DNA of 64,000 nucleotides, taken from assembly GCF_964355755.1 (NCBI RefSeq), contig NC_092670.1, forward strand, positions 831,001 through 895,000. Reading direction: 5' to 3'. The position numbers and the translations under genes are program-made. This document shows positions 1,388 through 63,047 of this stretch, piece after piece; positions within the stretch are counted from its first letter, which is position 1; every line of letters starts with the position of its first letter. Source of the DNA: Antedon mediterranea (Eukaryota > Echinodermata > Crinoidea > Comatulida > Antedonidae). The notes beneath the pieces are model-generated. The model saw nothing but the letters and a program-made list of their open reading frames with translations, was not told where the DNA came from and did no database searches.

Positions 1388-1978
1388 ATTTTGGCGAGAG
1401 TAAGAAAATTATCAGATGTAAGTGATCTCGCATCTAGATTTCATTCAAGCAATATCAAGCCACGTAAACTGTCCGTAGAAGAGGTTTACGGAAGTGACGA
1501 CAGTGATTGCGTCATGTCACCTACACTCGGTGACGGTAAATGGGATTCAGATTATTTCTCTGCGGACCACAACGAAAACACAGACCCAATTAATAGGAAC
1601 ATATCGTGCGCAACGACAGACGCAGATGAACAACGCAAACCAAACTACGCAACACCTCTACCGCCAATCGATACCAATTTTCTGTTCAGCGCACCGCTTT
1701 CACCGGATGAGGGCTGCATCACGTCACCAACCAGCACGTATTCATCATCCTCATCAGACGGATATGGTACCAACCAAAGCAATCTACCACACACCGGTAC
1801 CAATAACAATTCAGCTGTCACCCTTAAAATGGGAAAGTTCTCACTTTTGAGGAAATATAGAAACTCATTGGAAGCCGAAAATAGGGTTACGGTGACGAAT
1901 GTTACCGTCGGAGACATTACGGTGGCAATCAAGGAGAGCGTATCAAGTGACGGGTTCTTTAGGGATATGGAAGATTGA
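1388..1978 (+). CDS. Chromobox (Polycomb-type) protein A, last exon, 5' partial
   Basis: Last coding exon (196 residues plus stop) of a Polycomb-group CBX protein. It opens after a good acceptor (TTCTTGCAG at 1379-1387) in phase 0 and ends TGA at 1976-1978. The body is Ser/Asp/Pro-rich and low in structure. The C-terminus carries a Pc (chromobox C-terminal) box, VTVTNVTVGDITVAIKE, followed by SVSSDGFFRD; the GFFR tail is also seen in vertebrate CBX7. In this family the Pc box binds the RAWUL domain of RING1A/B and places the protein in PRC1. The chromodomain exons are not in the window. It is convergent with CBX gene B. The ATG at 1361 lies upstream of the acceptor, inside the intron, and is not a start. 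Confidence 0.85.
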   Translation: MLARVRKLSDVSDLASRFHSSNIKPRKLSVEEVYGSDDSDCVMSPTLGDGKWDSDYFSADHNENTDPINRNISCATTDADEQRKPNYATPLPPIDTNFLFSAPLSPDEGCITSPTSTYSSSSSDGYGTNQSNLPHTGTNNNSAVTLKMGKFSLLRKYRNSLEAENRVTVTNVTVGDITVAIKESVSSDGFFRDMED

Positions 1979-2362
1979 GCGAGGAAAAAGAGGAAGCAAA
2001 AAGTAAACAAAGCATTACAGAAAGTAAAAGACTGACATACACTATGCAAGAAATACGATGTTTGTGAAAGACAAGGACTTGAAGAATTGTTTATAATAAT
2101 TATGTACCTCAATTTGATTTTCAAACGTGTACATAATTTTAGTAAATTGGAAGGTGATAGAGGGCGGTATTAATATAGTTAAAGCAGACGATGTTAAGGA
2201 GAAAAACACCTGTCATGTTCGAGTCGAGTCGAGTCGAGTTTGAATTTTATGAATGGAGATTGAGAGATTAGAATAGTGAAGAACAATCTCGAATAATATT
2301 ATTATACCGTTGTTATTGTTAAATTAGTTTTCATATTTGTTTATGTAAGGCTTATTTAGAAG

Positions 2363-2489
2363 AATAAATTAGAACACGGATGGGAAATGTAACATAAACC
2401 ACTAATTGCAGAGAAGAATAACAACGGACCTTATGAACAACAATAACACTGGACCCACTGTATCTGTAGTTTGGTTGCACAAGAATAAA
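2363..2489 (+). terminator. Candidate polyadenylation signals of CBX gene A
   Basis: AATAAA occurs at 2363-2368 and again at 2484-2489, about 390 and 510 nt after the stop codon of gene A. Either could end the 3' UTR; no cleavage site can be read from sequence alone. Confidence 0.35.
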
Positions 2490-3850
2490 TAAGATCAACA
2501 TTAGTTTTGTTACTATTAATTGTTTATGTTTATTGGTATAACTTATACTTTAATCTTGTTGTATACGTATTCAATGTTCAACAACACAGAAAAAAAAATA
2601 TCGTTTAAAAATACTGTAATCTATTAAAAGGGAGCTATTGATTTTCGACCACCTCTTGGAGACCTATAGAACTACCAAACAAATATGACGAGAGAGCGAA
2701 AATCCACATCACAACCTCTCCCCGCATGCGCACAATTGACATGAACTAATTTCTAACTAACTTTTGCTCTAGGTCATCGTCGATCGTCGAAAGTTCCCTA
2801 TAATATGACAAGTAATTTATGTTTAGTTTTAAAAATGAAAAAGTAAAAAAATAAATCGCTACTGATATGTTGGTAGTAGGCCTATTCTGTAAAACGCTAA
2901 GCGTGTCGATAAAGGCAGACATTTTGCTGAATATTGAGAATTACTGGTGTTATAAAAGAGGTTTAGATTGGATTCTAACCCCACTCTCAACGTGGTGGAA
3001 ATTTGACAGTGGCAGGCCTACATAGGCCCTAATGATAATATGCTGGTGAAAGATATTTCCACGAGAGCCAAAATTTAAAAAAAAGGTTTACTACTTCTGT
3101 AATTTGGTTTGGATAATGTTTAACTCAAGAAATGTGTACAAATTGTTTTTATTATTTTATTTCTTTATTTGTACTGGTACTGTCACGTGGACAGGCACAG
3201 GCTAAGCATGTAAGGTTCATGATTAAGTCATTCATTAGGCTTGTTTTTTTGTCAAACTTGAAATAAACACTGAAATCAGACCCAGGGGTACTAGTCTGAG
3301 ATATTCGAGCCTACCGTTTTACTAAATAAAATGAAGGGTTAATGGTAATCGACAGAAATAAGAATTAATTTTTTAAAAACTTTTTAATTCATTTTTTCAA
3401 AGGACGAAATTCATGATCAATGAAAGAAAAATAAATATTGAAAAAAAAATAACTGGTGCGTTTATTTTTTATTATTAAAATTTTTTCTTTTTTTCTTATG
3501 TTAGTCCATCCGTCGGCGTCTCGATTTTTGTCTGGAAATTATATACAGTATATGAAACGCAATATGTGCCAAAATATTTATGTTTTTTTGCTCATATTTT
3601 ATTTCTTAGTTTCATAGATCTAGACTAAATATAGACTTTCACGTGACGATATGTTTCTATTAATTTAGGCCTGATATTTTGTTTACGAGATTCGCTTGAC
3701 TGTATTAAACTTTATATACAACACCAGCCATGAAAACCAAACATAGGCCTATATAGGGCCGGTTGTAATATTAGTATGTGATGATTTGGACCAAAAATGT
3801 GATGATATGAATTTGTGTTAGTTCTTACTATGTTTGACAATTTCCGCCTC

Positions 3851-4069
3851 AAAGGTAAATTCCAAGATCTTGATATCAAAATAAAAATCCAACCCAGAAT
3901 CTTGTTGATCAAAGGTAAAAATCTTGATATCAAAAATAAAAATCCAAACCAGAATCTTGATGATCAAAGATAAAATTCTTGATATCAAAAAAAAAAACCT
4001 AAAGTATAGAATGTTGATGATGAAAAACAAGCTTGATGTTCCAAAATAAAATCCCAGTGAAATTCTTGT
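3851..4069. repeat. Degenerate tandem repeat, about 57-bp unit, nearly 4 copies
   Basis: Units share the phrases TCTTGATATCAAAA and CCAGAATCTTG and the start AAAGGTAAA. They diverge toward the right end, where poly-A indels appear. The minus-strand open frames here (3712-3933, 3818-4030) are by-products of the array. Confidence 0.75.
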
Positions 4070-5559
4070 AAACTAAGAGTAAGGTGGAGAGACTTCAGTA
4101 GGTAGGCCAGATCGTCTGATCTTCTTTAAACTTATACGCTGTTTGTTGTTGGTGTTAGACGCATGAGGAGGTGTCGGTAGGATTTCGCCATGGTTAAAAA
4201 ATGCACAGTAAACTATTAATTAATATGCATCTTTATCTATGTCACAGTGGATATTCGTCCGGCATGACGTTAGCCTCATGGAACTCTTATGATGGTGAAA
4301 GGTGTGTCGGATGAATAGCGGTTATATTTGAAACTGATCTAGTACTGCAAATCACGCGTTATTATCCTTCTCTCGCCGCCGCAAAAACACGAATGGAATG
4401 AGACCCACGGCTCAAACGACTCCCGAGCAATAATATTTAAAACTTGGCGCGATCTGAAAAATTTGATTGGGTGAAATAATAAATGCAAATTTTGAGTCCC
4501 ATCTGTGTCGCGGTTCACGTAAATTACTACCGTATATTTACAGGTTAATATTGTGTCTTTACCGCTAACTAATTAACATGGTTCAGATATGCCATGGTTT
4601 CATGCTTAATAAATTCGTTTCAATTTTAATTCAATTTAATTATAGAATTGAAATACATTGAAATTACCATGTATCTATTACAAAACAATCAATTTTTTGT
4701 GGAGAGGTGCGTTTGTTTCAGGAAAAAAGAACAAGGATTTACATTTTTTAATTAGCGACACTTTTTTCCCGCGTCGTCGTCCCACCAGCAGACGACACTC
4801 GTCACAGCAGATGACACCCGTTACAGCAGATCAGACAAACATGACAGTAACAAACAATGTTCTCTTGACTATTTCTTTTAAAGTTTTATTGAACAGAAAG
4901 AGTATCGACATTATCTGCGCACAAAACAAAAAATCGTACTAGCACTTAATAAAGACAATCTGAGATGACACTTTTATACAACAGTAACAAGTTAAGAAGG
5001 GACAATGCTATACTTGACAAAACGTACAGTAGATATTATCAGGAAAGAGTGACATTTCAGTCTTCCCTGATATAACAGTATCGACGCAAGCGCAGTATAG
5101 TAATACTTGTCCCTATGAACGCGAGACGAATGTGAGCCGCCCACAAAGATACTAACATTCACACACTACGTTCCACCAAATAACGAATTGTTGAATGATA
5201 ATGTTGAATTTAAATCATTATATTTACACACCCTGGTGAACCAAAATAAGAATGTTTGATTGTATGTAGGCCTATGCCCTAGGCTTATCAGGTGAGAACA
5301 CATTTACAGTATAAAGAGAAACAACAATTAAAAGAGAGTTACACACAAAAATGCATATTCAACTCGTTCAAAAAATATATACAAGTTCAGTAAATAGGTA
5401 TACAAGCAGCACATATTCATTTTTATAGCACCATGCAATATTAAAATATTTTAAATATGTTTTAATTACTTAACTTATGACCAAGGTATAAAGATACATA
5501 GGAAGTAGGTTTGTATATTACACAAAAGGAGCGATCATTTTACTTCTAATTCTTAGGAC

Positions 5560-5715
5560 ACACCTAACACAAGTAATTTGATCAATCAACCGAGACGTGA
5601 CAACCACGAGGGGGAGTCATCTAGACTGCCGATTGTTGTGATTAGTCAAATTACTTAGGTTGCGCGTACGACGTCGCCCTTGCGTTACGCGTCTTGTGGG
5701 AACCAAGCGCGCGTA
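5560..5715. mobile_element. Palindromic MITE, family 1, copy 2
   Basis: The left arm has CAAGTAATTTGATCAATC. The right arm has GTGATTAGTCAAATTACTTA, then GCGTACGACG and CTTGCGTTACGCG, ending near TGGGAACCAAGC. The structure matches the copies at 22.9 and 23.7 kb. Confidence 0.65.
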
Positions 5716-6550
5716 CGAGGAGGCAAAACACGCCTACTATTTTAGTCTAAAATAAATTCGCGGTATTTTCAACAGATAGTTATACAGTACTTTAAAAAAA
5801 GTAAGTTGTAACCTAATTTTTTGCTCATAATTAAATATAAAATTGAAAACATGATCAAATGTTGCGATTCTCGTAATTAATATAGCAATGCTGTAATTTT
5901 AAAAGTATATGTATAAAAACACAATTTGCAGTGAGGTAAAAAGGAGGCTTTTGTAATTACATTTCATAACTAGCAACATTAGCGAAACTAATCTATTTCC
6001 TCTATTATAATTCAAACATACAATTTAAAGACAAACTATAATAAATATATAGGGCTAATAACATATTATTTTAAGTAAAAATTCTTACAAAATTCTATTA
6101 CTGTTTTTTTTTTGTCAAAACGTTTTAACATGACATACAAATATATTGTTTGAATCACCCCTGTACAGTAAAATGTAGTAGTAATACTCTGTCACCAAGA
6201 TCAAAAAGAGACACCATGTAACATGCGCGTTAAAACAATGAGGAAATCAGCACGGCTTTTGTACGCGCGTTATATTTGTGATTCTTCATGCTTTTTTGTC
6301 ACCGAAATTATACAAAATGTCTATTAACCTGTATTATATCATCCATCTTTTCAGGTTTTTCTAAGAGCATGCAATGGGATCACCATACATCAAGATTGTC
6401 ACCCACAGTCTAGTAAACAAATATAACTAGGCTAAATCGCATATGAAATTATCCAACGTTAAAATAGAAATACCCTTTAATATCGCGCGTTCCTTCTTCA
6501 CAATCGAGGGTAATTCACCTTTCACCGTCGGGTGACTGCGCAGTGCTATA

Positions 6551-9500
6551 TTACCGTACATTTTCTTTAATGGTGACCATGATGCCACCAACAGATACAT
6601 CTGTAACAAGTACACTGTTGAGAAGTTCATTTGGTGGTCTCCACACACTCATTTTATTGCGATTGCTATGGAGAGCGCGCTTCTCCGCCATTAGTTTATA
6701 GTCTGGGAAACGTCTTTGTTTCTGTGTATTTAGGCCTACTGGGCTTATCACCTGCTCGACGGGTGGTGTTGGGGGAACTACCGTTGTCGGGGCTGTCTTC
6801 AACGGATACTTCCGCGGTCGTCCACGTTTTCTCTTCTCTTTTTGTACGGGTTCTACCGATGTAGGCTGCGAGGAAAGCGCGGGAATTAACGAGGTTGTGT
6901 TGACGGTCGGCGCACCCGATACTCTCACTTCTTCCTGCCTGCCAACCAGGCTTTCCTTCTTGGCAATTTCTGCTGCCAAAAGTGACGCTTTAAATTGGGC
7001 CTCTAACTTAGCCCGCTGTTTCCAATGTAATTTCTTTTTCTTTTGTACAGGATGTTTCTTTTCTTTGACCTCCTTTATCTTCTTATTCACAAATTTTATC
7101 AATAGTTTTGGTCGACCTCGTTTTGCTTTAGGCTTTGCTTCAACAATAGATACCTTTTCCCTTTTCTTCTTCAGCTCCTCACTTTCCTTAGATTCGTCTA
7201 TAACTGACGCAAGTTCGTAACACGTTGGAATCTCATGTGTAGGAGCATTTGTTACAGAACATCTGATTGTGGCCTCGCTTTCGTACGAGGCTGCCTCTTT
7301 TTCGTACGAGGCCTCGCCATTCACCACCACCGCCGCATCGGTAGGATTGATGTGTTGTTTTTGGGGGATCAGTACCCGGTCTTCTGTTTCTGGAGGTGGT
7401 GTGTCGGTGCCGGTGCACTGATCGTGAGTTTCCACCTGTCTTCGGGCTGGTATGGGTAGAAAATCTTCATCGAACGATGCAATTGACTGACTTGCCTAAA
7501 AGATAAATTTATGACTTTGAACATTGTTTGGCTTATTCAATTAGTGATTTCCTGCGAATCGAACTGAGGTCGACGAATGCCAATGTCATTCCCGACTAGC
7601 CACTTTGAAAGGTCATGAAAACTTAGATAAGATATTAATACACAGTAGCCTAAGTAAAATCAAACATTTATATGAATGGGTGACTTAATTCAGTTTTTCC
7701 AATGCACATTATTAGGCCAACACGACACAAGCTGATACAACTAACATAATTAAATGATGAATGCTCACTGTATATTGTACATATTATAATCAAACACTAT
7801 ATTTGATATTTTACTTAAAATGATCGGTACTATTCTATTTAATTTGTTTGGGACCGGCATTTACTAGGTTGTAGTACCCCTTGGCTATATCAAGGGCGGA
7901 TCCAGGATTTTGTGAAAGGGGGGGGGGGGGCGCAACTGTAGAGAGTCCGCACCAACTCAGCGCCACCATGGTTGAGGCTGAGTTGAGGCGATTTTGAAAA
8001 TGTAACACCTCTAGATGGTCGGATATGGCACTCTCACGTTAAATAAATGTATTAAAATTGAAATTTTAAATATGAAAACTGAGGTACTAGCCTATCAAAG
8101 GGTGACATTTTCCCTATAGGCCTATTTTGAGTAAAAGTGTCACAACAGGGCGTTTCGCGCAAGTCAGAGTTTGCACGTACATGACGGAAAAAGGTGCCTG
8201 TCCAGGGCCGTCGACAGGACCTGTTATTAAATGACGCCCCAGATGGCCGGAAAAATGGTACTCTCGCACATAAAATTCATGATAAATGGCACCTCTAATT
8301 TGCAGGAAAAGACACTCTCATATGTAGCATGCTATCAATGAGCAAAACGATCATACTTTTCCCTCCAATAAACACACGTGACTAATTACAGGACGATATA
8401 ACATTTTGTTGCCGATTTCATTCACTCAGTATTTTGTTTTGATTGCGTTGCGTTCAAGTTCAATGCGAACGTACATCTAGGGGAAGCCCCGAAAAAAAGC
8501 GCAAATTTAATGCTTATTATAGCTCAATATTTATTTACATCAATTTGTTGTAGGTATTGATACAGTGGGTGGCCTAGGAAAAAAAATCGGTTGCTAATGT
8601 ATACTACCACAGTACACAGTTACCACAGTTAGTGTACTATATTATTATTAACATTATTATCCTCTATAATGATGATCTGTAGGTAACCACGCCGTGCCAT
8701 TTTTGACGTATATACACACATTTATTTATGCTTGCTGACTGCCAGCGATCTAAACAATGGGTAGGCCTACGCGGTTGTATGGCGGTGTCCTTTGTACGAA
8801 TCGTTCGTGCCTCGAGTATGGGTACGATACACGCGTCAATATCATGTTGTTACATCCAGGGACCAAAATGCGTTTCAGGTGAAAATAGGCAATTCATTTC
8901 GCAACTCTTAGAAATTTACAGACAGCAATGACAATGTCAATGGTGATGTCACGATAAATATGGTTCGGGGCCAAAATCGGTCCGGCCGGACCAGTTTTGG
9001 CTCTAAAGTTGTGGCCAAAAGCAGTCCGCCACTGCCAAAATCGGTCCGGGCTTTTCTTCTGTCGATATTAATTGAATTACTAGGCCTATGATGCTGTTTT
9101 AAATTGTTTATGGCTAGAAAAATATCCCATGATATATATTAGTAAGTTATCTTGTCGGATAAATACTATAAATAAATGTATTTTATCTAAAAACATGACT
9201 TAGGTGTTCACTCATATTTCAGCCTGCCACACACTCACATGAACGGGTATGCTGAGACGCTGATATTGCCAGCTAGATTTTATTTTATGATTAACAGGCC
9301 TTTTTCCTTCCTCAGCCTAATAAATATTGGATAATTGTTTTATAATAATTGTATTGAATTGATATATTGATTGATTAACCATAAATAATTAATAAATTAA
9401 ATTGTTTTTAACATCATGGGGAATCGAAAATGTTAAAAAAGAACAAAATGGATTAAAAACAGGCAGAGATACATATTGTATACAAAAAGCAAACAATTAG

Positions 9501-10863
9501 TACTAATTATTGATGAGTTACTACTAATAATGATAATAAAAAAAACAGGCTTAATTTATAATATTAAAATAACAAATAAACCCCGTAATATAATGACTGA
9601 TCATGGCCTTTTTAAAAAAAATGATATATACATTTATGACTCATTTTGCGCACCATATATTTGTAAGACTGGACTATATTTGGCGGCCAAAAACAGTCCT
9701 ACTGCCCGGACCGATTTTATCCAGGCCGGACCAGTTGTGGCGGCCAAAATTGGTCCGGTCGGACAGGTTTTGGCAGCCATAAATGGTCCCCTAGACTGAT
9801 TTTGGCAGCCAAAACTGGTCCGCCGGACCGATTTTGGCCCGGACTGATTTTGGTGTGAGAGTGACCTCTAATAAAAAGTAAATTAGCACGGCGCTGAATG
9901 TGTTTTAACCAAAAGTGAAAGTACTTTACTCTTTTTTCCCATTTTTTTTCCCTTATTATGGTAGGATGATTTTTTTTGTCTCCAGATTTATAGGGGAGGG
10001 GGGCGTGCGGAGGGTACCCCCCCCCCCCCCTGGATCCACCACTGAGCCTTTGCCTTTCTTTAAAGGGTAGGCTTTAATAATAATGGTGGCATCATACTCA
10101 TAGTATATGTAATATGATGTGTATATTAAATTAGGTCTATGCATACTCATTATTTTTACTTAAATAAACCTACAATTATGTTTTCATTGTGATTTAGATA
10201 AACTTGATAAATGAATATTAAATAATGACAGGCCTAGTACTAGTAGTAAGTAGGATGTTTACAGTGACTGACCTGTAGTTTTCGTCTTCGTCGTCTTTTT
10301 TTCTTTGGCTGTTCATCGAGTTCTTCCTGCCTATAATAATATATACAGTAATAACAACATGCATCGTAAAATGAAATGGATAATAGCGTTTATTTTGCTA
10401 CAACAACACATACTGAATGTTTTTAATTATACGCCATAAGCTAGGCTCACTGAGCTAGGCCCGTAACAGATGGCTCAACTTACCGTTCGAAGGCCTTGAA
10501 CAGTCGTTCGTCCAATATATTTTCCTTCGGTTCCCATGTGCTGTACCTACAGCATTGAGAAAATATCGTTTAAATAATAATACATGAACTCATATTATAA
10601 TATTTAAAGAAAAATATCAAAGAAAAGTATTTACTTTATTGACCAGCCTTTCCATTTTATGAGATATTCCTCTTGATCCTACGGAAAGAAGAGTACAAAG
10701 AACGCAGTTATTACCCGAGTAAAACAAAGAATAGGCAAAAAAGCTCGATACGCTAGGCCTAGCTATAGAAATAATTTGTTACCCAAATACGTACATTTAC
10801 TATCCTTTTCTTCAGCACAGCTTCAGCGGCATAAACGCTTTCACCTATACTGCTGAGCTCCAT
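6551..10863 (-). CDS. Chromobox (Polycomb-type) protein B with two AT-hooks, CBX2-like
   Basis: Five coding exons on the minus strand: 10801-10863, 10635-10678, 10484-10546, 10273-10330 and 6551-7495. They total 1173 nt, giving 390 aa, with GT-AG junctions throughout and a consistent phase. Residues 8-57 form a chromodomain: VYAAE, EEYLIKWKGWS, TWEPKENILD. The expected H3K27me3 aromatic cage is Y11, W30 and W33. A basic run (KKKRRRRRK) follows. Two AT-hooks are at residues 201-206 (KRGRPK) and 299-305 (KRGRPRK). The Pc box VLVTDVSVGGIMVTIKE is at 371-387, three residues before the C-terminus. Chromodomain plus AT-hook plus Pc box is the layout of vertebrate CBX2 and of Polycomb itself. Predicted role: a nuclear PRC1 subunit reading H3K27me3. 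The start fits the family (MELSS before the chromodomain). The 2.8-kb intron 4 contains transposon relics. Confidence 0.9.
7553..7622 (-). mobile_element. tRNA-like SINE head (fragment)
   Basis: On the minus strand this reads GTGGCTAGTCGGGAATGA, resembling an RNA polymerase III A box, and 36 nt further on CAGTTCGATTCGCAG, resembling a B box. There is no tRNA cloverleaf. It lies in intron 4 of CBX gene B. The call rests only on the A/B box spacing. Confidence 0.4.
7893..10050. mobile_element. Possible 2.1-kb element with inverted GGATCCAGG ends
   Basis: The left end reads GGGCGGATCCAGGATTTT followed by a G run. The right end reads in reverse complement as AGTGGTGGATCCAGG followed by a G run and GGTACCCTCC. 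Both copies point inward, as terminal inverted repeats would. No transposase frame is visible, and a foldback element lies inside at 8964-9853. No clear target duplication was found, so two independent copies of a short repeat remain possible. It sits in intron 4 of CBX gene B. Confidence 0.45.
8964..9853. mobile_element. Foldback element built of CCAAAATCGGTCCGG motifs
   Basis: The left arm at 8964-9050 has CCAAAATCGGTCCGGCCGG, then GGACCAGTTTTGG and further variants. The right arm at 9665-9853 has repeated variants of GGCCAAAATTGGTCCGG and GGACCGATTTTGG. Each motif is itself an inverted pair, so the arms fold locally and with each other. The 600-bp centre is AT-rich and non-coding; the open frame at 9476-9799 simply runs into the right arm. 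Confidence 0.6.
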
Positions 10864-11436
10864 GCTCTCTTCATGCCTAGCCCTTCGAACCATCTCTATT
10901 TTAGCGACCTCTGACACTAATATAATGCAGCAGACGATATTCTCTTATGAAGCTAGGCTTACCAAACAATCCTTCTAGGCTACTCTACTCGTTCGTTCTA
11001 CGCCGTGTTCATTGACCTACATTTACCACCCTGACACATGCAATATTATTAACATTCTGTCAAATCAATTTGGGATATTTAAGTTCGAAAAGACATGTTA
11101 GGCCTACTCGTCGGCTGACCTAGTCCTGTAGACCTATTTCATATTATATTATCATAATATAATATAATGTTTAAAAAACACACTTCCTGTACACTAGCTT
11201 GGGAAAAACGGTCTTGTTAAGTTCATAGAGCTAATTAATTTATTTCTACAGATTAAATTAATTAGATATATTTTCCTTATCACATTTTTGTGATATTGAT
11301 ATAATTGATATAAAAACACGTTTTTACATTTCGGTCAAAATGTGACGTAGGCCTATGGTATCACACGGAGCAGCAATGATATGCCTAACTGCTTAGTTGT
11401 TGTAGGTCTGCATTATTTTGATATTTTGAAGTTTAA

Positions 11437-12062
11437 AGACCCCTTCCCTGCAATTTTGGACGTTTTTTGGAAAATAATACATATATATCACTTTAAAAAC
11501 ATTAAACCATGTCATTCCTTGTCTTAAATGTACGTTTTATGGTAAATTATGATAAAAAGTGAGAAACAATGCACTACCTAAGTAGCTCGCGGCGATCGAC
11601 CTCTCGTGGACGGTCTTAGGCCTAGCCTAGCTAGGCTTAGTTTTGTAGGCCTAGCTGGTAAACATCGGTAACGTACGAACATCGTACGCGAGCTATATAC
11701 CTAGCCTGACGTTGTATAGTTGCTGCATTAATTGTCTTTCTATTTTTGCCAGACTCCGTTGATACAAATTGGGGAAACCCCGGTATTTTCGCTGAAAAGT
11801 TAGGGATCTTCCATTTGTTTTGGCCTCACGATCGATCGAAAAGTGGGCGAATTACAGGTGAAAAACAAAAATATCAATCCGCGCGCAATGCATTTTGGGA
11901 TTTATAGCGGGCCGCTATAATTATTAGAATCGACTTATTTTTCACATTTTTAACCGTTTAAAGACGAAAAAAGTTATCGCAATAGGACCATATAGTATTA
12001 TTTTTACATTAAATACAGTTTGTGATCTTAAATTAGATCTAAAAAACGTAGGGAATGGGGCT
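11437..12062. mobile_element. piggyBac-like MITE, copy 1 (TTAA target site)
   Basis: A 626-bp non-coding element. Both ends abut TTAA (11433-11436 and 12063-12066). The terminal inverted repeats are AGACCCCTTCCCTGC on the left and, in reverse complement, AGCCCCATTCCCTACG on the right. A second copy in the opposite orientation is at 52546-53144. The two copies align over their whole length, sharing for example CCGTTGATACAAATTGGGG-type and GATCGATCGA sequences. TTAA duplications and short inverted ends are typical of piggyBac elements; without a transposase the superfamily is an inference. Confidence 0.8.
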
Positions 12063-12528
12063 TTAAGATTTGGGAAACATGTTGGTTTGCTATCGGCGTT
12101 GCCTCAAGAGAGCGGCCTTGTTTTGTTTTTATTGTGTAGGCTATTCAGCGTATTGTTTTAGTGTTGATGATGAATAAAAGAGATTAATTTGATGAGTTGA
12201 TGGTATTTTTTTATGAGTTGAAAGATTATCCCAAGTGGCGAAGCCGATTTTATAGCAACAAAATTACAAAACGATCAATAAAACTGTACTAAACTTGTAT
12301 AAAATCACAGTCTACTCCCAGTCCATCAAGTTTTAGGGTTCGTTCAAACCTCGGATCCGATCCAATCGAGCTCGGAAACTATTCCAATCAAAAGAGAATA
12401 CACCAAAACAATAAGTAGTAAAGAAAAATAATTAAAATTATAGCCTCAGTGAAAACTTTACAACATTGTTAATCAAATATAAATGTTACTGTTCACAAAA
12501 AATGATCAACAATAAAGAAACTAGAAAT

Positions 12529-14112: not shown

Positions 14113-15698
14113 GTAATTTTATTATATAATACTGTATAAACACAATGAACTTTATAAGTGTATAAATTGCGCCCTCTATGTGGAAAATGCACACAATGAC
14201 TTGAATTTACTTGAGATTGGAAAACATGGGAACGAAAAAAAAATCCAATGATGTTTCTCTCTAAATTTATTCGTAATTGCTAAACAAAAAACACAATATA
14301 ATACACAATTTTTTACAGATTATCGACTATAATGTGACAAATTCAAAGAAAGTAAAAGTCAAGCCATTGAGATTTCGTCCGATCTTCATTGTAAACCAAT
14401 TAATTTATTTTTGAATAAATAAACCTCCCTTTGTGACGTCAAGAAAATGAAATTGAATTTATCAAAATCTTTAGGAAGATTCACAATAAACATGGTCACA
14501 TTAGGATTTTGTTTATAATCATATTAGCATGATATTGTCTTTAAATTAGGCCCACTGTCCTTTGTTTGGAGTAGCCTAAGTAAGGTCGTCTGCTCTGAGT
14601 ACGGTGTCTTCAAATATATCATCATGCTGTAGTGTTTTGTATCTATATTTCTGAATTTCAAACATTACATTTATATTTGACTATAATTTTGGTTATTTAG
14701 GCTATTCATATCAATTTATATAGATAACATTTTTTTAATATTTATATTTTGTGTGCAAACATTTATATTTTGTTTTTGTTCTGTGTTTGTTTTGTGTTAT
14801 ATGACAAACTGCATTAACGTACGGTGAGAGTCAATAAAGAATTGAATTGTGTATTTTTGTAAGTCTAAAATGTTTGCGTAGTGGTGGAAAAGATGAGTAA
14901 GTTTGGTGACAAATAAATAATAATCTTGTGCTATCTTTCTGTGCGAATAGCCGATCTTCGTAACACTCCAGCACCGTACGCGTCCTAACCCCCGGGGAAC
15001 TCCATTTTGGGTTTTCTGGTAGCACGTGAGTAAGCTGATAGGCCTACTGCAAGTACTACGTGACCAAATCAAACAGTGCGTTTCTACTTATAATAATTAT
15101 AGTTTGTGCATAATGTAAACAAAACAGGAAATGACACTTATGCGTCGAACTCCCAAGTAAAATTCTGTAACAATACGGAAATGAGGCGTAGAATATAGAT
15201 TGTATTGAACGTGAAAGATGTGTGGTCTATGTATTACAGTGTAGTGTTCTAGGGCCGTGGGCTGCTGTTGGTTTGGTTCGGGCAAACCATTTAGAAGGCC
15301 CATTTTCTCCAAAACTATAGCAACTTCCGTATCCATCTAACGTCGAACCCGACGCTAGATGATTCTGTTGAAGTTAATGCTGGGACTGGATGTGCTCTAT
15401 CCGTCGTTTAAAACGATAAAAATTTATACAACAAACATTTAACAAAAATAAATAAAAGATGCTATCCATTTGCAATTTAATAATATTTTTATAATTGAAA
15501 AGCGCTGCCAAAATAGCGATTAAATGAAATTTACATCCAGATTATACTAGACTACATAAGTAAACAAAATGTAAGATTTTATTATACAAATATCTTTTTC
15601 CACATAACTGTCTATTTCAGAAATAATAGTAATAGGCCCATTTCAGAACACGTGTTACTGTTAAGCAATGCTAATAAGTATATCCATGCGTAATCCAG

Positions 15699-15980
15699 CT
15701 ATCTATCGTTTCCGTTAGTCTCCATCAAAAAAAGATCCAATTTGATCAGATTGTTATCCAGAACATTGATTGCATTGACCTTTGGATTAGTGGGCTTCCT
15801 GTTTCTGGAATCAACTGGTAGAAAAGAACAAAATTGCTCATAACATTTATGTTCTAATTTTAAATGTTGTGGTGCAGATGAATCCGGGTGGCGGTTACCG
15901 TATTTATAATTCCAAGTTGTCTTCAACAAAATATTATAATTATGATGAAATGTAACGATCCTAGCGCCTGTTTTAAACAG
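15699..15980 (-). CDS. Possible orphan or alternative C-terminal exon (unassigned)
   Basis: An open frame of 93 codons plus stop on the minus strand. It is preceded by a plausible acceptor (TTTAAAACAG, ending at 15981) and ends TAG at 15699-15701. I do not recognise it as a known protein. Near its C-terminus it has AINVLDNNLIK, which resembles FINIMDYTYTLNNNLIRK at the C-terminus of CBX gene C (INVLD/INIMD and NNLIK/NNLIR, with a six-residue gap). It could be an alternative 3' exon of gene C, the relic of a fourth CBX copy, or chance. No chromodomain exons of its own were found. Confidence 0.25.
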   Translation of the reverse strand: MFKTGARIVTFHHNYNILLKTTWNYKYGNRHPDSSAPQHLKLEHKCYEQFCSFLPVDSRNRKPTNPKVNAINVLDNNLIKLDLFLMETNGNDR

Positions 15981-16446
15981 ATAGGCATACAATGTTTTCG
16001 TTAGTTCGATTAAGATTAATTAATTTTTCCCTACAAAAGAATTCCTTTGAAAAAAAAATTATAGGATATATATAAAGTTTGTTTGTTGAGTATAAATTTA
16101 AAGTGGGTGATTTTCCCAACAATATTGTAATTTTAACTCCTGAGTAAAATACTGAATGACATTTGCTATTCACAGTTAATTAATCTAACAATCGGTAAAA
16201 ATAACCTTCATCGAGTCGCAGTACGGAAACAATATCATGATTTCGTCAGAAGGTTAGTGTCAATGTTTAGTAGGTAGTTGATAAAAACTGAGTTTCTCCA
16301 TGGTACAAACTGGCAATGAGACAACTGATCCTGCTGCGTCCACGATACGAGAAACACAAAATATTAAATAACAATTGTGTTATGGAGAAGTCATCTTGCT
16401 TGATAAACGTGGAAATTTCAATACAAAAACGAAATATATACACAAT

Positions 16447-16571
16447 GCCTGGGTTTCCCGTAGCATTGCTACCGCGCTCACTCGCTCTACACATTGCGTG
16501 GGCCGCGGCCTGGGTTTCCCGTAGCAGCATTGCTACCGCGCTCACTCGCTCTACACATTGCGTGGGCCGCG
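16447..16571. repeat. Tandem duplication, about 61-64-bp unit, 2 copies
   Basis: Two nearly identical GC-rich units (16447-16507 and 16508-16571), each beginning GCCTGGGTTTCCCGTAGCA and ending TGCGTGGGCCGCG. The second has a 3-bp insertion (GCA). The duplication opens long frames on both strands (16267-16578, 16316-16633), which are not genes. Confidence 0.9.
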
Positions 16572-16660
16572 TCTCCAATGCAATCGGGAAGGCACACCGA
16601 TTCGTCGTCGCGCTGATGAATCGACAGATTTGAAATAAGTACTAATAATTATAGCTTTTC

Positions 16661-19600
16661 TTATGTTTCAGAATGTTTTCGTATTAAGTTATTGTTGAGT
16701 GTATATGTATAATCCATAATATTGATGAATGCTGTAGAATCGTCAGCTGAAATGTTTGTCTGTGGTGCTACCATTGAGTGCGATGAAGTAACAACATGTT
16801 GTCTACTTGCTGCATCATTTGATGTAGGGTCAAATAATCTAGGCTTCTTAATACTAAGGTCTAGAGGTTCGTCTTGTAGTGGAAGAGAAGCCTTTCTTTT
16901 AGGATGAATATCAGCGCTGCGTAACGACTGCGCAGAGCCTACGTTCGAATAATTCCATGAAGTAGGAGGATACGCGGCCAGATCACCATGTGACCGGAAT
17001 TTATTTTTGTGATTGGTTGAATTGTACGATGTTTTTGAATACGTGCTGTATCTGTTTAAACCTTTCCAGAAATTCATATTTACAACGTAAGCTTCCTTTG
17101 GTGATACGGATGGTGGTTTTCCGGATTTTCGCTTGCAGGTCGTCATGCCTGAATACATATTTTTAGGTGTAGGGCTACTACTAACATTTGATAATGTCTT
17201 GGTCGCAAGGCCTACACTTCCATCTTGGCCTAAACGTGATTCTTTTACCCGGGACGCACATTTAACCAAATCCAATGTGCAATATTTTCCAATTTTCTCC
17301 GTAGGGCTACAATTATCATCTGCATTTTTGCATGATTTATGTTCAGTGGTTATGTCCGCTATGACGTCACCTTGTGTGGCATCATTCTCAACATCTTTAT
17401 CGATGTTAGTCTTTGCATCTGTTTGGTGTTTGTGATAAGGAAATACTAATCCCTTTCGTTTCCCCTGAAAAAAAGAGAAAATTAAAACAGTGCGTCAAAG
17501 TTAGTCGAACATTTCAGGCGTTTCCGCAACATTGATGGTCATAATGAGGAGCTAGGAATGACTAATTAAATGTTTTGCTATGAGCTGAGTATAGGGATCA
17601 GCGGGAGCTTACAAATTAATCATAAACATAATCTATATTTCAGAAAAGGTTATGACCTAACGTTGGAATAAAATAAGTAAAAAATGTTAACTTCTTCAGA
17701 TCATAAAATCTAGATTACTACAATCTTGCGGCTACTACATTATAAAAAAGTCTTTTTCACAAGAACAGTTCTTTCTCACAAGAGGCAACAATACCCAGGG
17801 AACAGTGCAGTACCGTACTACCGTACAGGTATGTGACGTGAAGCGTTGGAATTACTTTGCATACCCACCTTCGGTTTCATGATTAGACTTTCTGCTTCTT
17901 TCGTAACTTTCAATCTGTGGAAAAGAATAAAAATAAGTTACAAAATCTATAGTGAGCGATTTCGATATATTAACACAGAGACGTCACGTAAGTTGATGGC
18001 TTAGACTTTCATGATTCGCATGGCCTGCGTGCATTGCATGCCTCGATTTGCTTCTTGCCCTTTGCAGTACTCGGCTCTTGTTCGATAATAATATCCCGGC
18101 AGAAACCGGGTTTAATGTATTAGGCCAACGATATTAAACCATGGAGTACGTGGGCAGCAGTGACTCAAGCTAGGTCAATTATAGGCCCGGATGCACAAAG
18201 AAAATTTGGAAAAATAGCAATGTTATACTATGGTTATATGCCTTTGTTTGCACAATAGTGGCATTTTCATTGAATTTACTGTAACAGGAAATACACAAAA
18301 ATGTAATGTAATCAACGTCGTGCGTCCATCACAATATGTTTTAAACTGAACGAAAGTTAGAACAGCAGATGCGTAACTGTGTTGTTTAATGGATTGGCAA
18401 GCACTAAATCAAAATGAAATAATATGCGATAAGGCTGCGCTTAGTGTGAACACAGGCCACCTACAAAAGAAAAAGTGAACCGTATCGTTGCTTTGCTTTG
18501 AGTATCTGCAAATGTGTCCGTGGTCGGAACATTGGTAGTTAACGGTTTTGTTCCCTCTATCCCGTTTATGTTATTCTTCCTAGCCGTGAGCAGATACGCG
18601 AGTGTGAAAACGGCCTTATAACATATTACAGTCAGTGCATGCAGCCAAACATTTCTTTATCTTTATCCTTTTTATAATATACTTTGCTGTTAATTAGGGA
18701 GGATATAGTATGTCATAAGTTTCTAATTCGCCAACGGTGTCTTTTATCAGTTTATAATATATTCTATTATCATTGATATCAACTCGATATAAACAAATCT
18801 GTGTTCTCAAAATGCATAATAATAATAGTAGGCCTAACTTCTCGTAAGGAAACCTTGTTCGTTGCAAATATACCTTTGTTCATAACGCTCAAACAGTCGA
18901 GCGTCCAAAATATTGCCTTCTGGTTCCCACGTGTTGTGCCTAATGGAAAAACAAAAACAATGTCATTTTTAAATGAGTATATTCAGTCTAGAAAATGTAC
19001 TCGAGGTTTTCTAGTCAGCGGGGCAGTTTCTATGGGATATGCGAGTTATAAAACCTTACCGTGACCCCGCCCCACAAGACATGTGTATAGGTGTGTAAGT
19101 GCCTTTTGTATCAGTGTATGTTAGGCAAGATCGTGGCGAAAGGTTAAACCAGACGAGGCAAAGATGCTTTAAATATACTTATTTATATAAAATATGACTA
19201 TCTGTGCAGTGGAATTGGGGTGGGTGGTGAAAATTGAAAAATTTCAGACGAGGCCAGCGCCTCGTCTGCCTAATGCTGGCTACGGCCCTGTTATGTAATT
19301 TTGAATGTATCTGTGTATATAAAGACACTAAAGTTGTTATGCCAATATTAATACTACTAAACAGCATCTGATAATGCCTACATAGAATCTAATTACTTAC
19401 TCATATTAGTTAGAATTGATTTATTTAAACATGTCTTTTTTTCGACAGCTGATGTTGAGAACAACATTTCATAGTTATCCTTTGAAAACTAGCATACTTT
19501 AGTTTATTAAAGGTCTAGGGGACCTATCTATGTCTGCAAACAACTTTCGTTTGTACCGGAGACGCCTCGACGGACAGTCTGTCTGTCGAGAGGCTTTCCG

Positions 19601-22600
19601 CCTGTTCCTACCTTCTAGTTTGAAATAACGAAACAACAACGAAGGTAGCAAATTACGCAACCTACAAATAAACTGAATTCTATGGCCATCTCAGCCAATA
19701 ATTAATTGCCTCTCAAATTTTAGCTTTGTTAATCTAAATGTTTTGCTACAAGTCCCAATTACGTGTAATTTATTATGTGTAAAACCAATCATCTAATTAA
19801 TATACTAGTTCACTATTGGCTCAATTCCAAACGATGTATTAAAAATCAGTTTATTAAAAGAAAACCACATTAACAGTAGAGACCGCGATTACGCGCGCGT
19901 AAATAATGAAACATTATTATAGGATCCGTTTGCAAATAATAGACGGTACTGTACAATATTATGTAGAAAAACAAAGTTCTTACATATCGATATCTACGTC
20001 ATTAGCACTATATTTTCTCAAGCTTAAATTGTTAAATTATTACATTACGGAAACGAGGTGCAATGGCTTTGGACTTTTGGACAGGTCTGATACTAATTCT
20101 AGGCTCTATACGGTACATTTACACCCTAATGTTGTTGTCATTATTATACATTTATGATGTATAGAATGTGGTATCTAGAACTCAACTACAAATGTCAATG
20201 AAGAATATCGACGATCGATTCCATCAACGTTTACCGCACACACTTAACAATGGCCTATTGTTTAACAGTCATGTTAACATCACCACAGTCACAATATTTA
20301 TTTGCATATTAATATTTCCGTCAAACTAGTAATACATCACTTTTGGTTTATCAACCATACAGTTGTTCCAAATTATGTTTTATTTATTTACATTTTACAC
20401 AAGACTAAAGTTGTGAAGAAAAATTAATAACCAGCAATTAATTTGCTACTGTCGAAACATAGACGACGATCACGCTGACGCGTCCGAAGTCATGACGTAC
20501 CGTAATGACAATAATTTACTTGTATTAATAATGATGATTCGTAGGCTTACGGCTATTAGTATTTGTTAATAATATCTTTTGAAAAAATTTAATTCGTTTT
20601 TATTTGGTCTAATGAAAACACCCATTCACAATAGTTTACAGAGCCTCTCTCGATTAATAAGGTCTAAACAACTCAAGCGATAATCTATCTAAATGAGGCT
20701 TAGCTGGATTAAGTTCTTCCTTCTGGTAAATCAAAAGGGAACTTCGATTAATCGATGATCTTTTCCCCATTTAGACCTAGTTTAAAAAAAATATTTTTAA
20801 TGGAAATTTTCGACAAAATTCCAATTTATTTGCCATGACAAAAATCAAATAGCGAGCAATCAATCTTCCCGTCGCTTACAAAATATTCACTAAAGCCGGT
20901 GTCAGGATCAGAATCATGTGACATCATTATCCCAGTACACTCTCTAATGAACATTAGAAATACATTAATAAGCTTTTCAACTTATACACGTCTTACGCAT
21001 GCGCTTACGCTGCTGGTAATAGACTTTTGCGATATTTCATTCTGCCTCAATTACTGCCGTTCTTCCTCAACAATCAATAAAATAAATTACTTTAAATGCT
21101 ACGTTAATGCATACTTGCAATCATATCTAAGTGAGATAGTCAGTCTTCTCTATCAATTAAGTATCTAAAGGCGACATGATATAGCAGTGATGACCACACG
21201 ATCATTTTGAACAGTGACGTCATCATCGTATTATATTAAATATAGTGATCACGAGAAATAATTTCCTATTATAAAATATTATACAATATGACTTGGCTAA
21301 TTTAATCATTTCTGTAACTAAATGATTAATTTAATCCTAGAAGTCTTATAACCAACGCAGTATCCGTACACGGTACAACGGTGTATTTATCATTCTAAAA
21401 ACAGTGATAATGAACACCATCACATAACATAACATAAAACAATAAGGAAATGATGAGAATAATAAGTTACAGTTTTTTGTATTGCCCTATATCCATACAG
21501 ATTTAAACTTATGTAATACGGTATTAATTAAAGGATGAGTTCCAACTTTGAAAATCAACTTTTTAGGAATGTTTTAATAAATTTACTTATGGGCCTACAA
21601 TAAAAGATCTCCTGACGGTTTTTAGCTTTTGAAATTACATAATTATTGTTGGGAATTTCAGATAATTCTTGCTCTTTTGTGCTTTAACAAAGTTAAAAGT
21701 GCAGCAACCAGGAAGTAGCTACTTCAACTTGTAATTCAGTCATTTTTTCCAGTCATTTTATTAAGGCGTGTAAATTATTTTGTGACCATTTACTGATATT
21801 TGTTCCTAAACTCGAATTGAGTTGCTGAAGCTGAAGTTGGTTTAAAGTATACTTAAGAAATTTAAATTTAATACTGTTTCATTTATAAATGTATTTATTG
21901 AAAATTCAGCAAAAGATAAAACCATGGACTAATGGCAAAACATTGGAAACCTCTTTTTATTGGAACTTACAAGAATTGAGGATTTTATTTCAAAACAGTA
22001 AAAGAAACGGGTATAATCCATCTTAACATTTGTAATACTCACAGCAGACAAGCGGCATCATCTACAACTCTTAAGTATATTCATAAGTCATACAAGCATG
22101 TGACGACTGCGTTTAAAGGAAGGCTCCAGAATGGTGACATTCATTTAGCATATGGTATTTGCCACAACTGTAGGCCTATACGTGTTTCAGTTTTTATTGG
22201 AATCGGATAAGGTGTCACCGGTTATGGTCAAAATCTACACGCGTAATGTGGCGATGATGACCTAAGAGAAATTCTCTTATTATGGTACCATGCGCAATGT
22301 GTTATGACGTCACATGTTCTATTTATTCACGTAACGTTTCTTTAATTTTCTACTTCATTAATAATGGATAATTAATGCTTTAAACTTAGACCTACATTAC
22401 TTGAGTATAATAATTACCTTAACATGCTTAGATATTAGATATGATTGTTAAGTACGGACTTATTTTAAAGGCCTGCGGTACTCTTTTTTAGTTTTTCAGA
22501 AAACAAAAGTTATGTAAACGACCTAGGCTAATTAATAAAGATTCAGAATTCTATACAGGTTTTAAATAATACGCACAGAGAAACCGGATTTTTAAAACTT

Positions 22601-25600
22601 GGTAAAAAAAAACAATCGAAAAGCGTCGAGGGGTTGATTAAAATAATAAATTTGTTATAAGAACAAACACATTTAGTGGATTCGTTTAATCCAGATGTCC
22701 ATAATGACTATTGTCAAACTGATGTGAACTACAGGATGTATGATCCAAGGTTCAAATCATATCGGCGGCGGATATGTTCCGATCTTTGAATTCATCTTTG
22801 TAATGATGAATTGTTGTTGTTGCTTCATGCACTCTTGGACACAACAACGTAGGCGCAATTCTGACCAATCACAATTCTGATGACCCATCGCGTCGTGATT
22901 GGTCAAATTACTTGCGTTGCTTTTACGCACTTGCGTAGCGTTCCAAAGTGGGAACCCTATAGTTAGGTATTTGTTACCATCTTTAATTAGGGTGGCCTAT
23001 CCAGTTCCAGTGAAGGAATTGATAATTGAGGGCCCCCGAAAAAAACATATAAATACAAACACATAAAATATACAGAACAACGGTTAAGTATATAAAATCG
23101 TTCATCGAATAGCATATGATTTACAGATTCATTTTGCAACAGAAGAAATTGCTGTGCACGGCCTAATTCTTACGTTTTAACATTCCATTCATGCTAACGA
23201 ATATTCATCCTGTTTTACTAAACCATTAATTCATCCTCCATGTTACACCGACAGAAATGAGAATTAGCTATACTAAGTTATCGATATTATTATGAATGGC
23301 GTTTCTTTTAACAACAATCCACGACATCCGATAAGGGTAATCTTCATATACACACACTAATTAGACTAATCTTAGCAATTACAACATAGAACAAGATAGA
23401 CTACCGGTATACCGATAAAGTACACAGTCGGTCCGGCCTTAACACACAGTCCGCGATACTAATGTCGTTACCACCCGGAAATGATTCTCTTTGTTTTGAA
23501 AACTCATTTCCCGATTCATTAGATTCTTTATTCGATAGAAACATACAATTGTATATTTATGTGGTTAACTATTATTTACTTAAATAGGCTACTGTTCCCA
23601 ATTGGACGCAACGACGCGTTGCATTGCGCAGTGTCTACTCGCGACGTAGGCACTGCGCAAGTGAGTTGACCAATCACAAGCAAGACAGTGTGGATGAACT
23701 ATCCCGTCATGATTGGTAAAATTGTTAGGGCGTTGCTTCAACGGGAACCAAGCTTCAAATAAGATGATAACGTACATTTACGTGCGTTTTTATTTTTTAA
23801 ACAAAGGGAAATACTGGACATTGTTTTATGCCTATACTTACAAGTCTATATATTCAAAATTTTATCAAGTTTTTTTTAAAAGCCCGAAAACTTCTTCATG
23901 AACAATCATTAAAGTGTTACTTTCATCATCGCGCACATTACAAATCACGAAACTAAAGTGCTTTAGACTTTAACGGAGTTATTGAGCATATTAACCGGAT
24001 AATAATAATAATATATTACATGTGCAATTTCTGCTTTGTTCTATTAACCGTAAAGCTTTTAATACACACGGATGGTTCTTGGAATCTACTTTCAAAGTAC
24101 TACTAGTGGCCTACTACTACTAATAATAATAATAAATAATATATTCATACAGGATAAAACAATCGGATAACAGTGTATCTGTTTTACATTGTTACATTTT
24201 ACATTACATTGTTTTACATTGTCTTAATCAAAATATACAAAAGAGTATTTTTTGCTGACATTTTTCGTCAGCAAGGCGATGGTTGTAAACCGGTCATTGC
24301 CTGGTTTGGGCTTGGCTGCTAAGTCGGAAGCGACAGACGGATCAGTTTCACAATAGCAAACCACACCCAAAATAATAATTTGGGGCGATCATAATAATGA
24401 AAAAATACGGGCACCATGAGAGAAACCATAAACTATACAAAATATTGGGGGCCATTTATTCCTTTAACATTTTAGTTTACAGTATAAATATTATAATTTA
24501 TCGAATAATTATATTTTCTTTCTAATTTTTGGCAAATTTTATGTATTTCTATACAGAATTTGAACAACTTATATACGTTTCACTATTGATTTCGTATTTC
24601 GTTAGATACTCACCAATTCGCACTTCCCTTTATCCTGGTGAGAACACAGAGTATAACGTGTCCTTATTGTTAACCTATAATCGTATTATGGCATTTGACT
24701 GCCGTTAGGGAGTAAATGTCACTCTTTACTTGGAAATCTAAATTACCAAACCAGAATAGTTACAAGATCCTGTCATCTTGATCATGTTTGACAATTATAT
24801 TCAAAACTTAGTATAAACATGTAACAAATACGTTTTCTATTAAATGTTGTTACATAATTCAGGTGGGTGTCCCAGGTGCGTACATAACCTGTGCGTAAAG
24901 CATTCCATGTCCCTTGGATTTTAACGAACTTGTCGATTGAAGGAACAAAATAATGATCAAAAGAACGCAAAATTAATTATTTGAATAATGATGTATGAAA
25001 CGAAACTGTTAGGCTTAAAGTATGAAACACATCGTAATGCTCGGCCGCGATAATGTTTAAAAAATGCGTAGGTCAATTGAAAAATGGTAGCCTGCAATCA
25101 CCTTCTGTCAGTGCCCCTCCTCATCGATTCAGATTTTACGTTTAGCATTCCGTTCTTTCAACTAAAAGGGGCAATAGTGGTTGGGATGACTATAAACTTT
25201 ATTAAACGTTAGAATATGTAAAACAGATTCTTTTTTACCTGATTGTGAAATCCGGGAAAACCACGATTTTAAAACTCATAACTTCATTTCATTATTGCAA
25301 TTTGTTGTTCAATATAAAGTGTATAAGAAATGAAATGTAAACATGCCTATGAAAATCTCCAATAAATTTTCAAACCACATAGGCCTAATGTTGTTTGTTG
25401 TGGGGGGGGGGGGGGGGGGGCGATATTTATTATAACTATTATTAACAAACAAAGTCTATATGCACACGAATATAATAGTGAGATGGTTTGTATACCGACC
25501 TTAAAGACCAACCTCTCCATTTCACAAGATATTCCACCTTTCCCTAGAAAAACAAGATTAACGTGCACGTTATCTGATAGACCTAGATAAGTTGAAGGAG

Positions 25601-25852
25601 CATGCGAATTAACGTGCACGTTATCTGATAGACCTAGATAAGTTGAAGGAGCGAATTAACTAAATACAGTCAATTTAGACATGCCCCGGCGTATTGTATT
25701 TGTATACGTATCCGTGACAGACTGAGTGAAGCTTAACGTGTAATGATTAAATGTGATGAGATATTGAAAATTGCCACAAAATAACTTACCTTTCGAATAC
25801 GTCGTTTTAATAGTCTCTCGGCGGCGAAAACATTCTCTCCCATGTCTTCCAT
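16661..25852 (-). CDS. Chromobox (Polycomb-type) protein C with CtBP-type PLDLS motif
   Basis: Five coding exons on the minus strand: 25790-25852, 25500-25543, 18874-18939, 17869-17914 and 16661-17464. They total 1023 nt, giving 340 aa, with all junctions GT-AG and phases consistent. The chromodomain spans residues 6-57: NVFAAE, GKVEYLVKWRGWS, HNTWEPEGNILDARLFERY. The expected methyl-lysine cage is F9, W30 and W33. The remainder is Ser/Lys/Asn-rich, with PLDLSIKK at residues 273-280; PxDLS is the classical CtBP-binding motif, and CBX4 has a related site. The C-terminus holds only a degenerate Pc box (residues 320-336, INIMDYTYTLNNNLIRK), keeping the Asp and the final basic residue but losing the hydrophobic strand. 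RING1 binding may therefore be weak or lost. Intron 2 is 6.6 kb. Exon lengths 63 and 44 match gene B exactly, supporting tandem duplication. Confidence 0.88.
19565..19593. repeat. Short near-perfect hairpin
   Basis: CTCGACGGACAG pairs with CTGTCTGTCGAG at 11 of 12 positions with almost no loop. It lies inside intron 2 of CBX gene C, within a GC-richer 100-bp patch that may be a small MITE. Confidence 0.5.
22835..22965. mobile_element. Palindromic MITE, family 1, copy 3
   Basis: CTGACCAATCACAATTCTGA on the left faces GTGATTGGTCAAATTACTTG then CGTTGC on the right, closing with GTGGGAACC. This is one of the best-preserved copies of the family. Confidence 0.7.
23590..23755. mobile_element. Palindromic MITE, family 1, copy 4
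   Basis: The left arm includes ACGCAACGACGCGTTGC and GTTGACCAATCACAAG. The right arm includes CATGATTGGTAAAATTGTTA and ends CGGGAACCAAGC. The outer ends (TTCCCAATTGG against GGGAACCAAGC) suggest terminal inverted repeats beginning TTCCC/GGGAA. Confidence 0.7.
25557..25653. repeat. Tandem duplication, 47-50-bp unit, in intron 1 of CBX gene C
   Basis: ATTAACGTGCACGTTATCTG starts both units, and each continues with ATAGACCTAGATAAGTTGA before GGAGC. The copies differ by 3-4 bp at the junction (CATGC). Confidence 0.9.
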
Positions 25853-30359: not shown

Positions 30360-31142
30360 TTATAAACTTTGGAACGACATGTCATCCGTGGACGAATTAA
30401 ACTCACTGGAGCCGCCAGGACTCGTGTCCTCATCCACCATCCAGTGGGCCAACAAATCACTAAAATCTAAGGTGTTACTTGCATGCTTACTATCACCACT
30501 GTTTATAGTTTGTCCTATATGGGGTTCATTAAAGAAACTAGTTGGCAATTTACGTTTCTTCCAAGGTAAGGTGTAATTATCAGTACATGTTTCCATTCTA
30601 TGGCACAGTGTATCCCCGTCTTGTTCTTGAGCAGTAAATGAAGATACATTTCTTACTTCGTTTGTCTTAAAAAGATCACCAAATGGTCCTAAACTTGAAG
30701 AAGATACTTTTCCATTATGAGTTTTATCTTGCCAGCTAATTTTATGAATAGTTTCTGTCTTTTCTCCTCCATTCTCTCCATTTTCATCAGCACCGTTTAC
30801 GTCACTAATTTTGGCAATTCGTAAAAGATCAGCATAATATAGTTCTGGACCAGATTTCCTTTTCTTAGTTGATTTATTATCAACATCGTCTAGAAATTTA
30901 CTTTTTCCGAAATATTTCTGAATATCTTTGTTCACAATATCAACATAATTCAGAAGCTGCTGACAAATATTTGGTTGACATTCATCATCCTCATCCTCCT
31001 CCTCTTCGCTATCGAAGTCATCTTCCCAGCTGGCTTCATCGTCACTTTCAGGCAAAAACGCTCGATTTGAAACAGTAGTCTGTAAATTTTGCAATGTTCC
31101 TGTTTCATCTAACTCGCCGACTTGAAGAGAGAAACTGGCCAT
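30360..31142 (-). CDS. PERCC1: PERCC1-like protein
   Basis: A single-exon coding region of 260 aa. An acidic stretch (residues 34-54) is followed by a block with DIQKYFGK (73-80) and ELYYADLLRIA (100-110). Further on is RKLPTSFFNEP (197-207) and, near the end, LDFSDLLAHW (225-234). The same blocks in the same order are what I remember of vertebrate PERCC1 (IQKYFGR, ELYYADL, RKLPPSF, DFSDLLASW), so I call it the PERCC1 homologue. Its molecular function is not established; in mammals loss causes failure of enteroendocrine cells and congenital diarrhoea. The first in-frame ATG (31142) is chosen; the frame opens slightly upstream at a GTG, closed by TAG a few codons earlier. A GTAAGT donor on the minus strand at 32134 suggests a 5' non-coding exon. 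Confidence 0.75.
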   Translation of the reverse strand: MASFSLQVGELDETGTLQNLQTTVSNRAFLPESDDEASWEDDFDSEEEEDEDDECQPNICQQLLNYVDIVNKDIQKYFGKSKFLDDVDNKSTKKRKSGPELYYADLLRIAKISDVNGADENGENGGEKTETIHKISWQDKTHNGKVSSSSLGPFGDLFKTNEVRNVSSFTAQEQDGDTLCHRMETCTDNYTLPWKKRKLPTSFFNEPHIGQTINSGDSKHASNTLDFSDLLAHWMVDEDTSPGGSSEFNSSTDDMSFQSL

Positions 31143-51860: not shown

Positions 51861-52069
51861 TGCATCTCATTAATTTATTCTGAAATTTAAAGCAAGTAGA
51901 TACAGTAGTCAGTTTCAGGTGTGGTCTCAATTTCATCAAATAATAAATGAACAAAGATTTTCTTGATTCCATTTTTTAATTTAATCAAGCAGAACACTAA
52001 CAATTTTTAAAAGAATTATTTCGTATTAAAGAAAAAATGTTCTAATGTTTGATTAATTAATTTTTAAAT

Positions 52070-59240: not shown

Positions 59241-59302
59241 GATTAAACGATCTAATTCACAATCAAAATCAAAGTGATGAACTGCTAAGGAAAACTGTTC
59301 AA

Positions 59303-60239: not shown

Positions 60240-60554
<315 letters not shown>

Positions 60555-63045: not shown

Positions 63046-63047
63046 CT

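Follow-up and report, generated by a model that had tools for sequence, protein, structure and literature searches.

The expansion of the CBX family of Polycomb (Pc) proteins has been tied to the vertebrate genome duplications, a 2009 survey having found one Pc gene in invertebrates (PMC2784810). In the genome of the crinoid Antedon mediterranea, a first-pass annotation of a 64,000-nucleotide stretch (hereafter the window) reported three CBX-type genes, termed A, B and C, lying in tandem. The locus thus raises the question of whether a Pc-class gene cluster exists outside the vertebrates, and whether it arose independently of the vertebrate CBX genes or together with them. Coordinates are given either within the window, which corresponds to C1:831001-895000, or on the contigs of the assembly (354 Mb, 18 contigs; C1 is NC_092670.1). 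Two tektins score much higher against sea urchin than against vertebrate sequences (290 versus 156 bits and 238 versus 147 bits), which identifies the host as an ambulacrarian and probably an echinoderm; a tektin-3 exon gave no indication either way, its top PDB matches all being tektin-3/5 of vertebrate type without a near counterpart from sea urchin.

A tandem cluster of Pc-class CBX genes

All three genes of the first-pass annotation were recovered at the positions it had reported. An HMM search built from human CBX chromodomains, also split at the exon joints, located the chromodomain exons of A and a further complete gene, D (C1:797220-798712, + strand), 21 kb to the left of A. The chromodomain exons of A, which had been presumed to lie outside the window, were found upstream of it at C1:819833-825128. 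Four Pc-class CBX genes are consequently arranged within 60 kb, in the order D, A, B, C, with D and A on the forward and B and C on the reverse strand. A whole-genome protein search also detected two chromodomain exons at C1:18.88 Mb, which form part of a fifth gene, E (C1:18880567-18887502), a dispersed copy located on the same chromosome 18 Mb from the cluster. The tandem Pc-class cluster is real and larger than first described: the proposed set of three is a set of four, accompanied by the dispersed E.

With one mismatch allowed, a degenerate DNA pattern representing Pc exon 2 matched the whole 354 Mb genome at only five places, corresponding to D, A, B, C and E, while the reversed control pattern yielded 0 matches across the same genome; chance is therefore excluded as a source of these matches. 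Further chromodomain matches in the genome were rejected as candidates, being in part single exons of other chromodomain families. Others fall in long, nearly identical open reading frames of mostly 340-390 aa, each containing a chromodomain, at more than 12 places on most chromosomes; these are probably integrases of a retroelement family. Between D and A lies a minisatellite of about 2.5 kb (C1:813740-816256), open in several frames and encoding the repeat LLVGLYTYY.

Gene structures

The models of all five genes comprise five coding exons with a 44-nt exon 2 and intron phases 0-2-2-0 (Table 1), and in 5/5 the chromodomain is split across three exons. Vertebrate CBX genes likewise distribute the chromodomain over three exons, a feature which, together with the tandem arrangement of Pc-class genes, is shared with the vertebrate CBX2/CBX4/CBX8 cluster (human 17q25.3; PMC2784810). 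For exon 4 of A only a single candidate had the correct phases, and intron 1 of D is apparently of the GC-AG type.

B and C had been described as possessing the same intron phases and equal lengths of coding exons 1 and 2 (63 and 44 nt). The phases and exon 2 bear this out; the equality of exon 1 is doubtful. Exon 1 of C is 63 nt long, and two donors are available in B. Ending exon 1 at 63 nt (donor ATA|GTAAAT) leaves the chromodomain two residues short, whereas 69 nt (donor AAT|GTACGT) appears the likelier length because the chromodomain then aligns without a gap.

Table 1. Coordinates of exons and motifs of genes A, B and C
Feature	Coordinates	Strand	Remarks
A exon 1	C1:819833-819901	+	left of window
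A exon 2	C1:822249-822292	+	left of window
A exon 3	C1:825063-825128	+	left of window
A exon 4	C1:829031-829091	+	left of window; encodes AT-hook
A exon 5, last coding	window 1388..1978	+	
A Pc box	window 1856..1945	+	29.4 bits, cut-off 22.2
Gene B, whole	window 10863-6551	-	
B coding exon 1	window 10795..10863	-	69 nt; 63-nt version stops at 10801
B exon 2	window 10635..10678	-	44 nt, chromodomain
B exon 3	window 10484..10546	-	end of chromodomain
B exon 4	window 10273..10330	-	basic stretch
B exon 5	window 6551..7495	-	
B first AT-hook core	window 7109..7123	-	KRGRP
B second AT-hook core	window 6815..6829	-	KRGRP
B Pc box	window 6563..6646	-	truncated C-terminally, ends TIKENVR-stop
Gene C, whole	window 25852-16661	-	
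C coding exon 1	window 25790..25852	-	63 nt
C exon 2	window 25500..25543	-	44 nt, chromodomain
C exon 3	window 18874..18939	-	end of chromodomain
C exon 4	window 17869..17914	-	
C exon 5	window 16661..17464	-	without Pc box
C PLDLS	window 16853..16867	-	CtBP-type motif

Phylogenetic placement of the chromodomains

Trees were constructed from a 54-residue chromodomain alignment of the five genes with human CBX2/4/6/7/8, fly Pc, HP1s, CDYL and MPP8. D, A, B, C and E were placed with all Pc-class proteins on one side, opposite HP1/CDY, with support of 96/92 in a tree built with the 63-nt exon 1 version of B; a second tree, with HP1 alone as contrast, gave Pc-side support of 100/99. Although HP1 (CBX1/3/5) has a chromodomain in common with the five genes, each of them (5/5) possesses the hydrophobic clasp V10/L49 typical of Pc where HP1 carries E/D, and an HP1/CDY origin is ruled out by the trees and the clasp residues. 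The Polycomb-type identity initially proposed for the cluster is thereby upheld, with a reservation for C, whose chromodomain groups with Pc but which has no Pc box. The chromodomain references of CBX2, CBX4, CBX6 and fly Pc were verified letter by letter against PDB chains; HP1, CDYL and MPP8 served as further chromodomain references, and CBX2, CBX8 and fly Pc as Pc-box references.

Within the Pc side the tree forms a polytomy, in which none of the copies pairs with one vertebrate CBX with support; a grouping of D with fly Pc received 59/71 in the corrected alignment. Constraining the five genes as one clade gave AU p values of 0.113 in the first tree and 0.225 in the second (0.11-0.25 overall), and constraining the human CBX five as one clade gave 0.179 and 0.256, neither constraint being rejected. 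Chromodomain identity ranges from 50-63% between copies and from 59-72% against human CBX8, just 1-5 of the 7-12 fourfold-degenerate sites agree between copies, and little can be aligned beyond the chromodomain and Pc box, the linkers not aligning. Together, these observations indicate that the copies are not recent.

Sequence features of the five genes

Closer examination of the methyl-lysine cage revealed a complete set of aromatic residues in D, B, C and E (F/Y at 11, W32 and W35, corresponding to F11, W32 and W35 of CBX7). The cage of A is incomplete, with W35 replaced by Cys in the one assembly available. Given that loss of the other cage tryptophan, in the CBX8 W32A mutant, abolishes H3K27me3 binding (PMC6411926), reading of this mark by A is probably weakened by W35C.

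Pc boxes above the Pfam cut-off of 22.2 bits were identified only in D (38.0 bits, the best in the genome), A (29.4) and B (25.7), full-length in D and A and stopping early in B. For C and E, the best Pc-box matches within the gene models were no better than shuffled sequence, and none was found in the flanking sequence examined or in a genome-wide search at E <= 10. By these features C and E would be classed as Pc-type chromodomain paralogues rather than full Pc proteins, although their lack of a Pc box is contingent on the models, in which a 3' exon may have been missed. RAWUL-domain genes of the RING1/PCGF type exist in the genome.

AT-hooks are present in D, A and B, similar to vertebrate CBX2, which has an AT-hook beside its chromodomain (PMC2784810). 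A PxDLS motif was found in C only, as PLDLS, a level reached by 3/3000 shuffled sequences; PLNLT in E is weak (145/3000 shuffles). Among vertebrate Pc homologues a CtBP site has been reported only for CBX4 (PMC2784810), a protein also present in CtBP complexes (PMC3671672). CBX4 (Pc2) thus combines a Pc-type chromodomain with a PxDLS-class CtBP motif as C does, but C is without a Pc box.

Compared with known systems, Drosophila Pc displays the same Pc-type chromodomain, V10/L49 clasp, aromatic cage and C-terminal Pc box, and D is its nearest counterpart in layout, with a chromodomain 59% identical. Unlike the single gene of the fly, the crinoid genes include one with AT-hooks in the layout of Pc (D), one with a damaged cage (A), and two without a Pc box (C and E). 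Nor could any copy be assigned a one-to-one match in the vertebrate CBX2/CBX4/CBX8 cluster, whose members carry the Pc box (PMC2784810) that C and E lack.

Chromosomal neighbourhood

The chromosomal context of the cluster was surveyed with five markers drawn from the neighbourhood of vertebrate CBX loci (human 17q25.3 or 22q13.1). CBY1 was located at C1:1.1408 Mb, 0.28 Mb from the 5' end of C, and TOMM22 adjoins it within the 20 kb around CBY1 that were examined. TNRC6 maps to 23.27 Mb of this chromosome, EIF4A3 to C10 and an IMD domain to C8; SUN-domain matches occur on C1, C4 and C10. Four markers were found at one place each, two of which (CBY1 and TNRC6) are on the chromosome of the cluster. 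Human CBX6/CBX7 (22q13.1) are likewise linked to adjacent CBY1-TOMM22, and the two loci appear alike in this linkage; the vertebrate locus comprises two CBX genes, whereas here there are four, with E elsewhere on the chromosome. As the chance of a single place falling within 0.3 Mb of the cluster is estimated at ~0.2%, or ~1% over five markers, the CBY1-TOMM22 linkage suggests that the cluster probably occupies the ancestral CBX locus. What this linkage dates is the locus, not the array.

Several frames beside TOMM22 (C1:1144322-1151777) resemble fibrinogen-related genes. Within the window itself, histone genes occupy positions 58875-63929: H2B on the reverse strand at ~59.3-58.9 kb, followed on the forward strand by H4 (60.2 kb), H3 (61.8 kb) and H2A (63.5 kb). 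A 271-aa open reading frame at window 30363-31175 (reverse strand) scores 30.6 bits for the TEADIR3 motif (Pfam PF15238; cut-off 26 bits); a Pfam scan of 42 flanking frames returned this motif and one low-complexity match, and nothing else. A row of frames at window 43989-51866 (reverse strand), one of which contains a Pro-Glu repeat, has the appearance of a gene with several exons and a C2-like segment; by eye it resembles CCDC33, and it is without a supporting Pfam match.

Origin and age of the array

The altered cage residue of A and the short Pc box of B might be expected were the cluster an artefact of assembly or a set of pseudogenes, some copies representing misplaced haplotypes or dead genes. 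This we regard as highly improbable: chromodomains with 50-63% identity are too divergent for haplotypes, the five-exon models of all five genes are open, their splice sites are plausible and their phases are in register, and the Pc box of A is well conserved. The 54-residue tree favours neither of the two explanations that accept the genes as genuine; we lean somewhat towards a single ambulacrarian Pc gene that was duplicated in tandem within its own lineage, separately from the CBX expansion of vertebrates, its copies diverging rapidly afterwards. The single invertebrate Pc of the 2009 survey (PMC2784810) is in keeping with such an expansion, as are the compatibility of a one-clade constraint on the five genes with the data (AU p 0.113 and 0.225) and the Pc-box pattern common to A and B (59% across the 22 residues that B has). 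Conversely, the five genes remain unjoined in the best trees, and any duplication must be old, given that the copies are less similar mutually (50-63%) than to human CBX8 (59-72%), agree at few fourfold-degenerate sites (1-5 of 7-12) and have unalignable linkers.

The age of the divergence between copies would also be expected of an ancient cluster, in which at least one tandem duplication preceded the split between ambulacrarians and vertebrates, such that CBX2/4/8 and CBX6/7 derive from more than one gene. CBX genes occur in tandem in both groups, the CBY1-TOMM22 linkage appears common to both, and the data do not force the human CBX five into one clade (AU p 0.18-0.26). Against this, no supported pairing of any copy with a vertebrate CBX was obtained, the Pc side being a polytomy, and linkage gives the age of the locus, not of the array; an ancient cluster appears a possible but less probable explanation than expansion within the lineage. 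A bolder proposal would have the tandem array at CBY1-TOMM22 be of deuterostome level and older than the vertebrate genome duplications, and include readers without a Pc box (C and E), with C coupling H3K27me3 chromatin to CtBP rather than PRC1; taken as a whole, we consider this unlikely. The unusualness of five Pc genes is itself judged from one 2009 survey (PMC2784810) and from a search of the genome of the window, and a literature search for CBX genes in amphioxus, sea urchin or hemichordates returned no relevant report.

Predicted division of functions

On balance, we think it likely that this is an ambulacrarian CBX locus with four tandem copies and the dispersed E, in a neighbourhood resembling that of CBX6/CBX7, and that Pc functions have been divided among the copies. 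Each binding and repression activity in this scheme is predicted from sequence. D would represent the standard form, with a chromodomain that reads H3K27me3, AT-hooks for binding DNA and a Pc box that docks on RING1 in PRC1. A has an AT-hook and may retain RING1 docking; given its damaged cage (W35C), it is probably held on chromatin via DNA rather than via the mark. B is expected to read the mark and has AT-hooks, with docking of RING1 probably weakened by the shortening of its Pc box. C and E appear to have kept a Pc-type reader in the absence of a Pc box, and C, through PLDLS, would probably draw the co-repressor CtBP, rather than PRC1, to chromatin carrying H3K27me3.

An ambulacrarian set of five Pc-class genes, with four arranged in tandem at what appears to be the same locus as in vertebrates, would imply either that the CBX expansion started earlier or that an independent, parallel expansion took place. 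Furthermore, A, with its altered cage residue, and C and E, which lack the Pc box, may serve as natural test cases for establishing which parts of Pc are needed in silencing.
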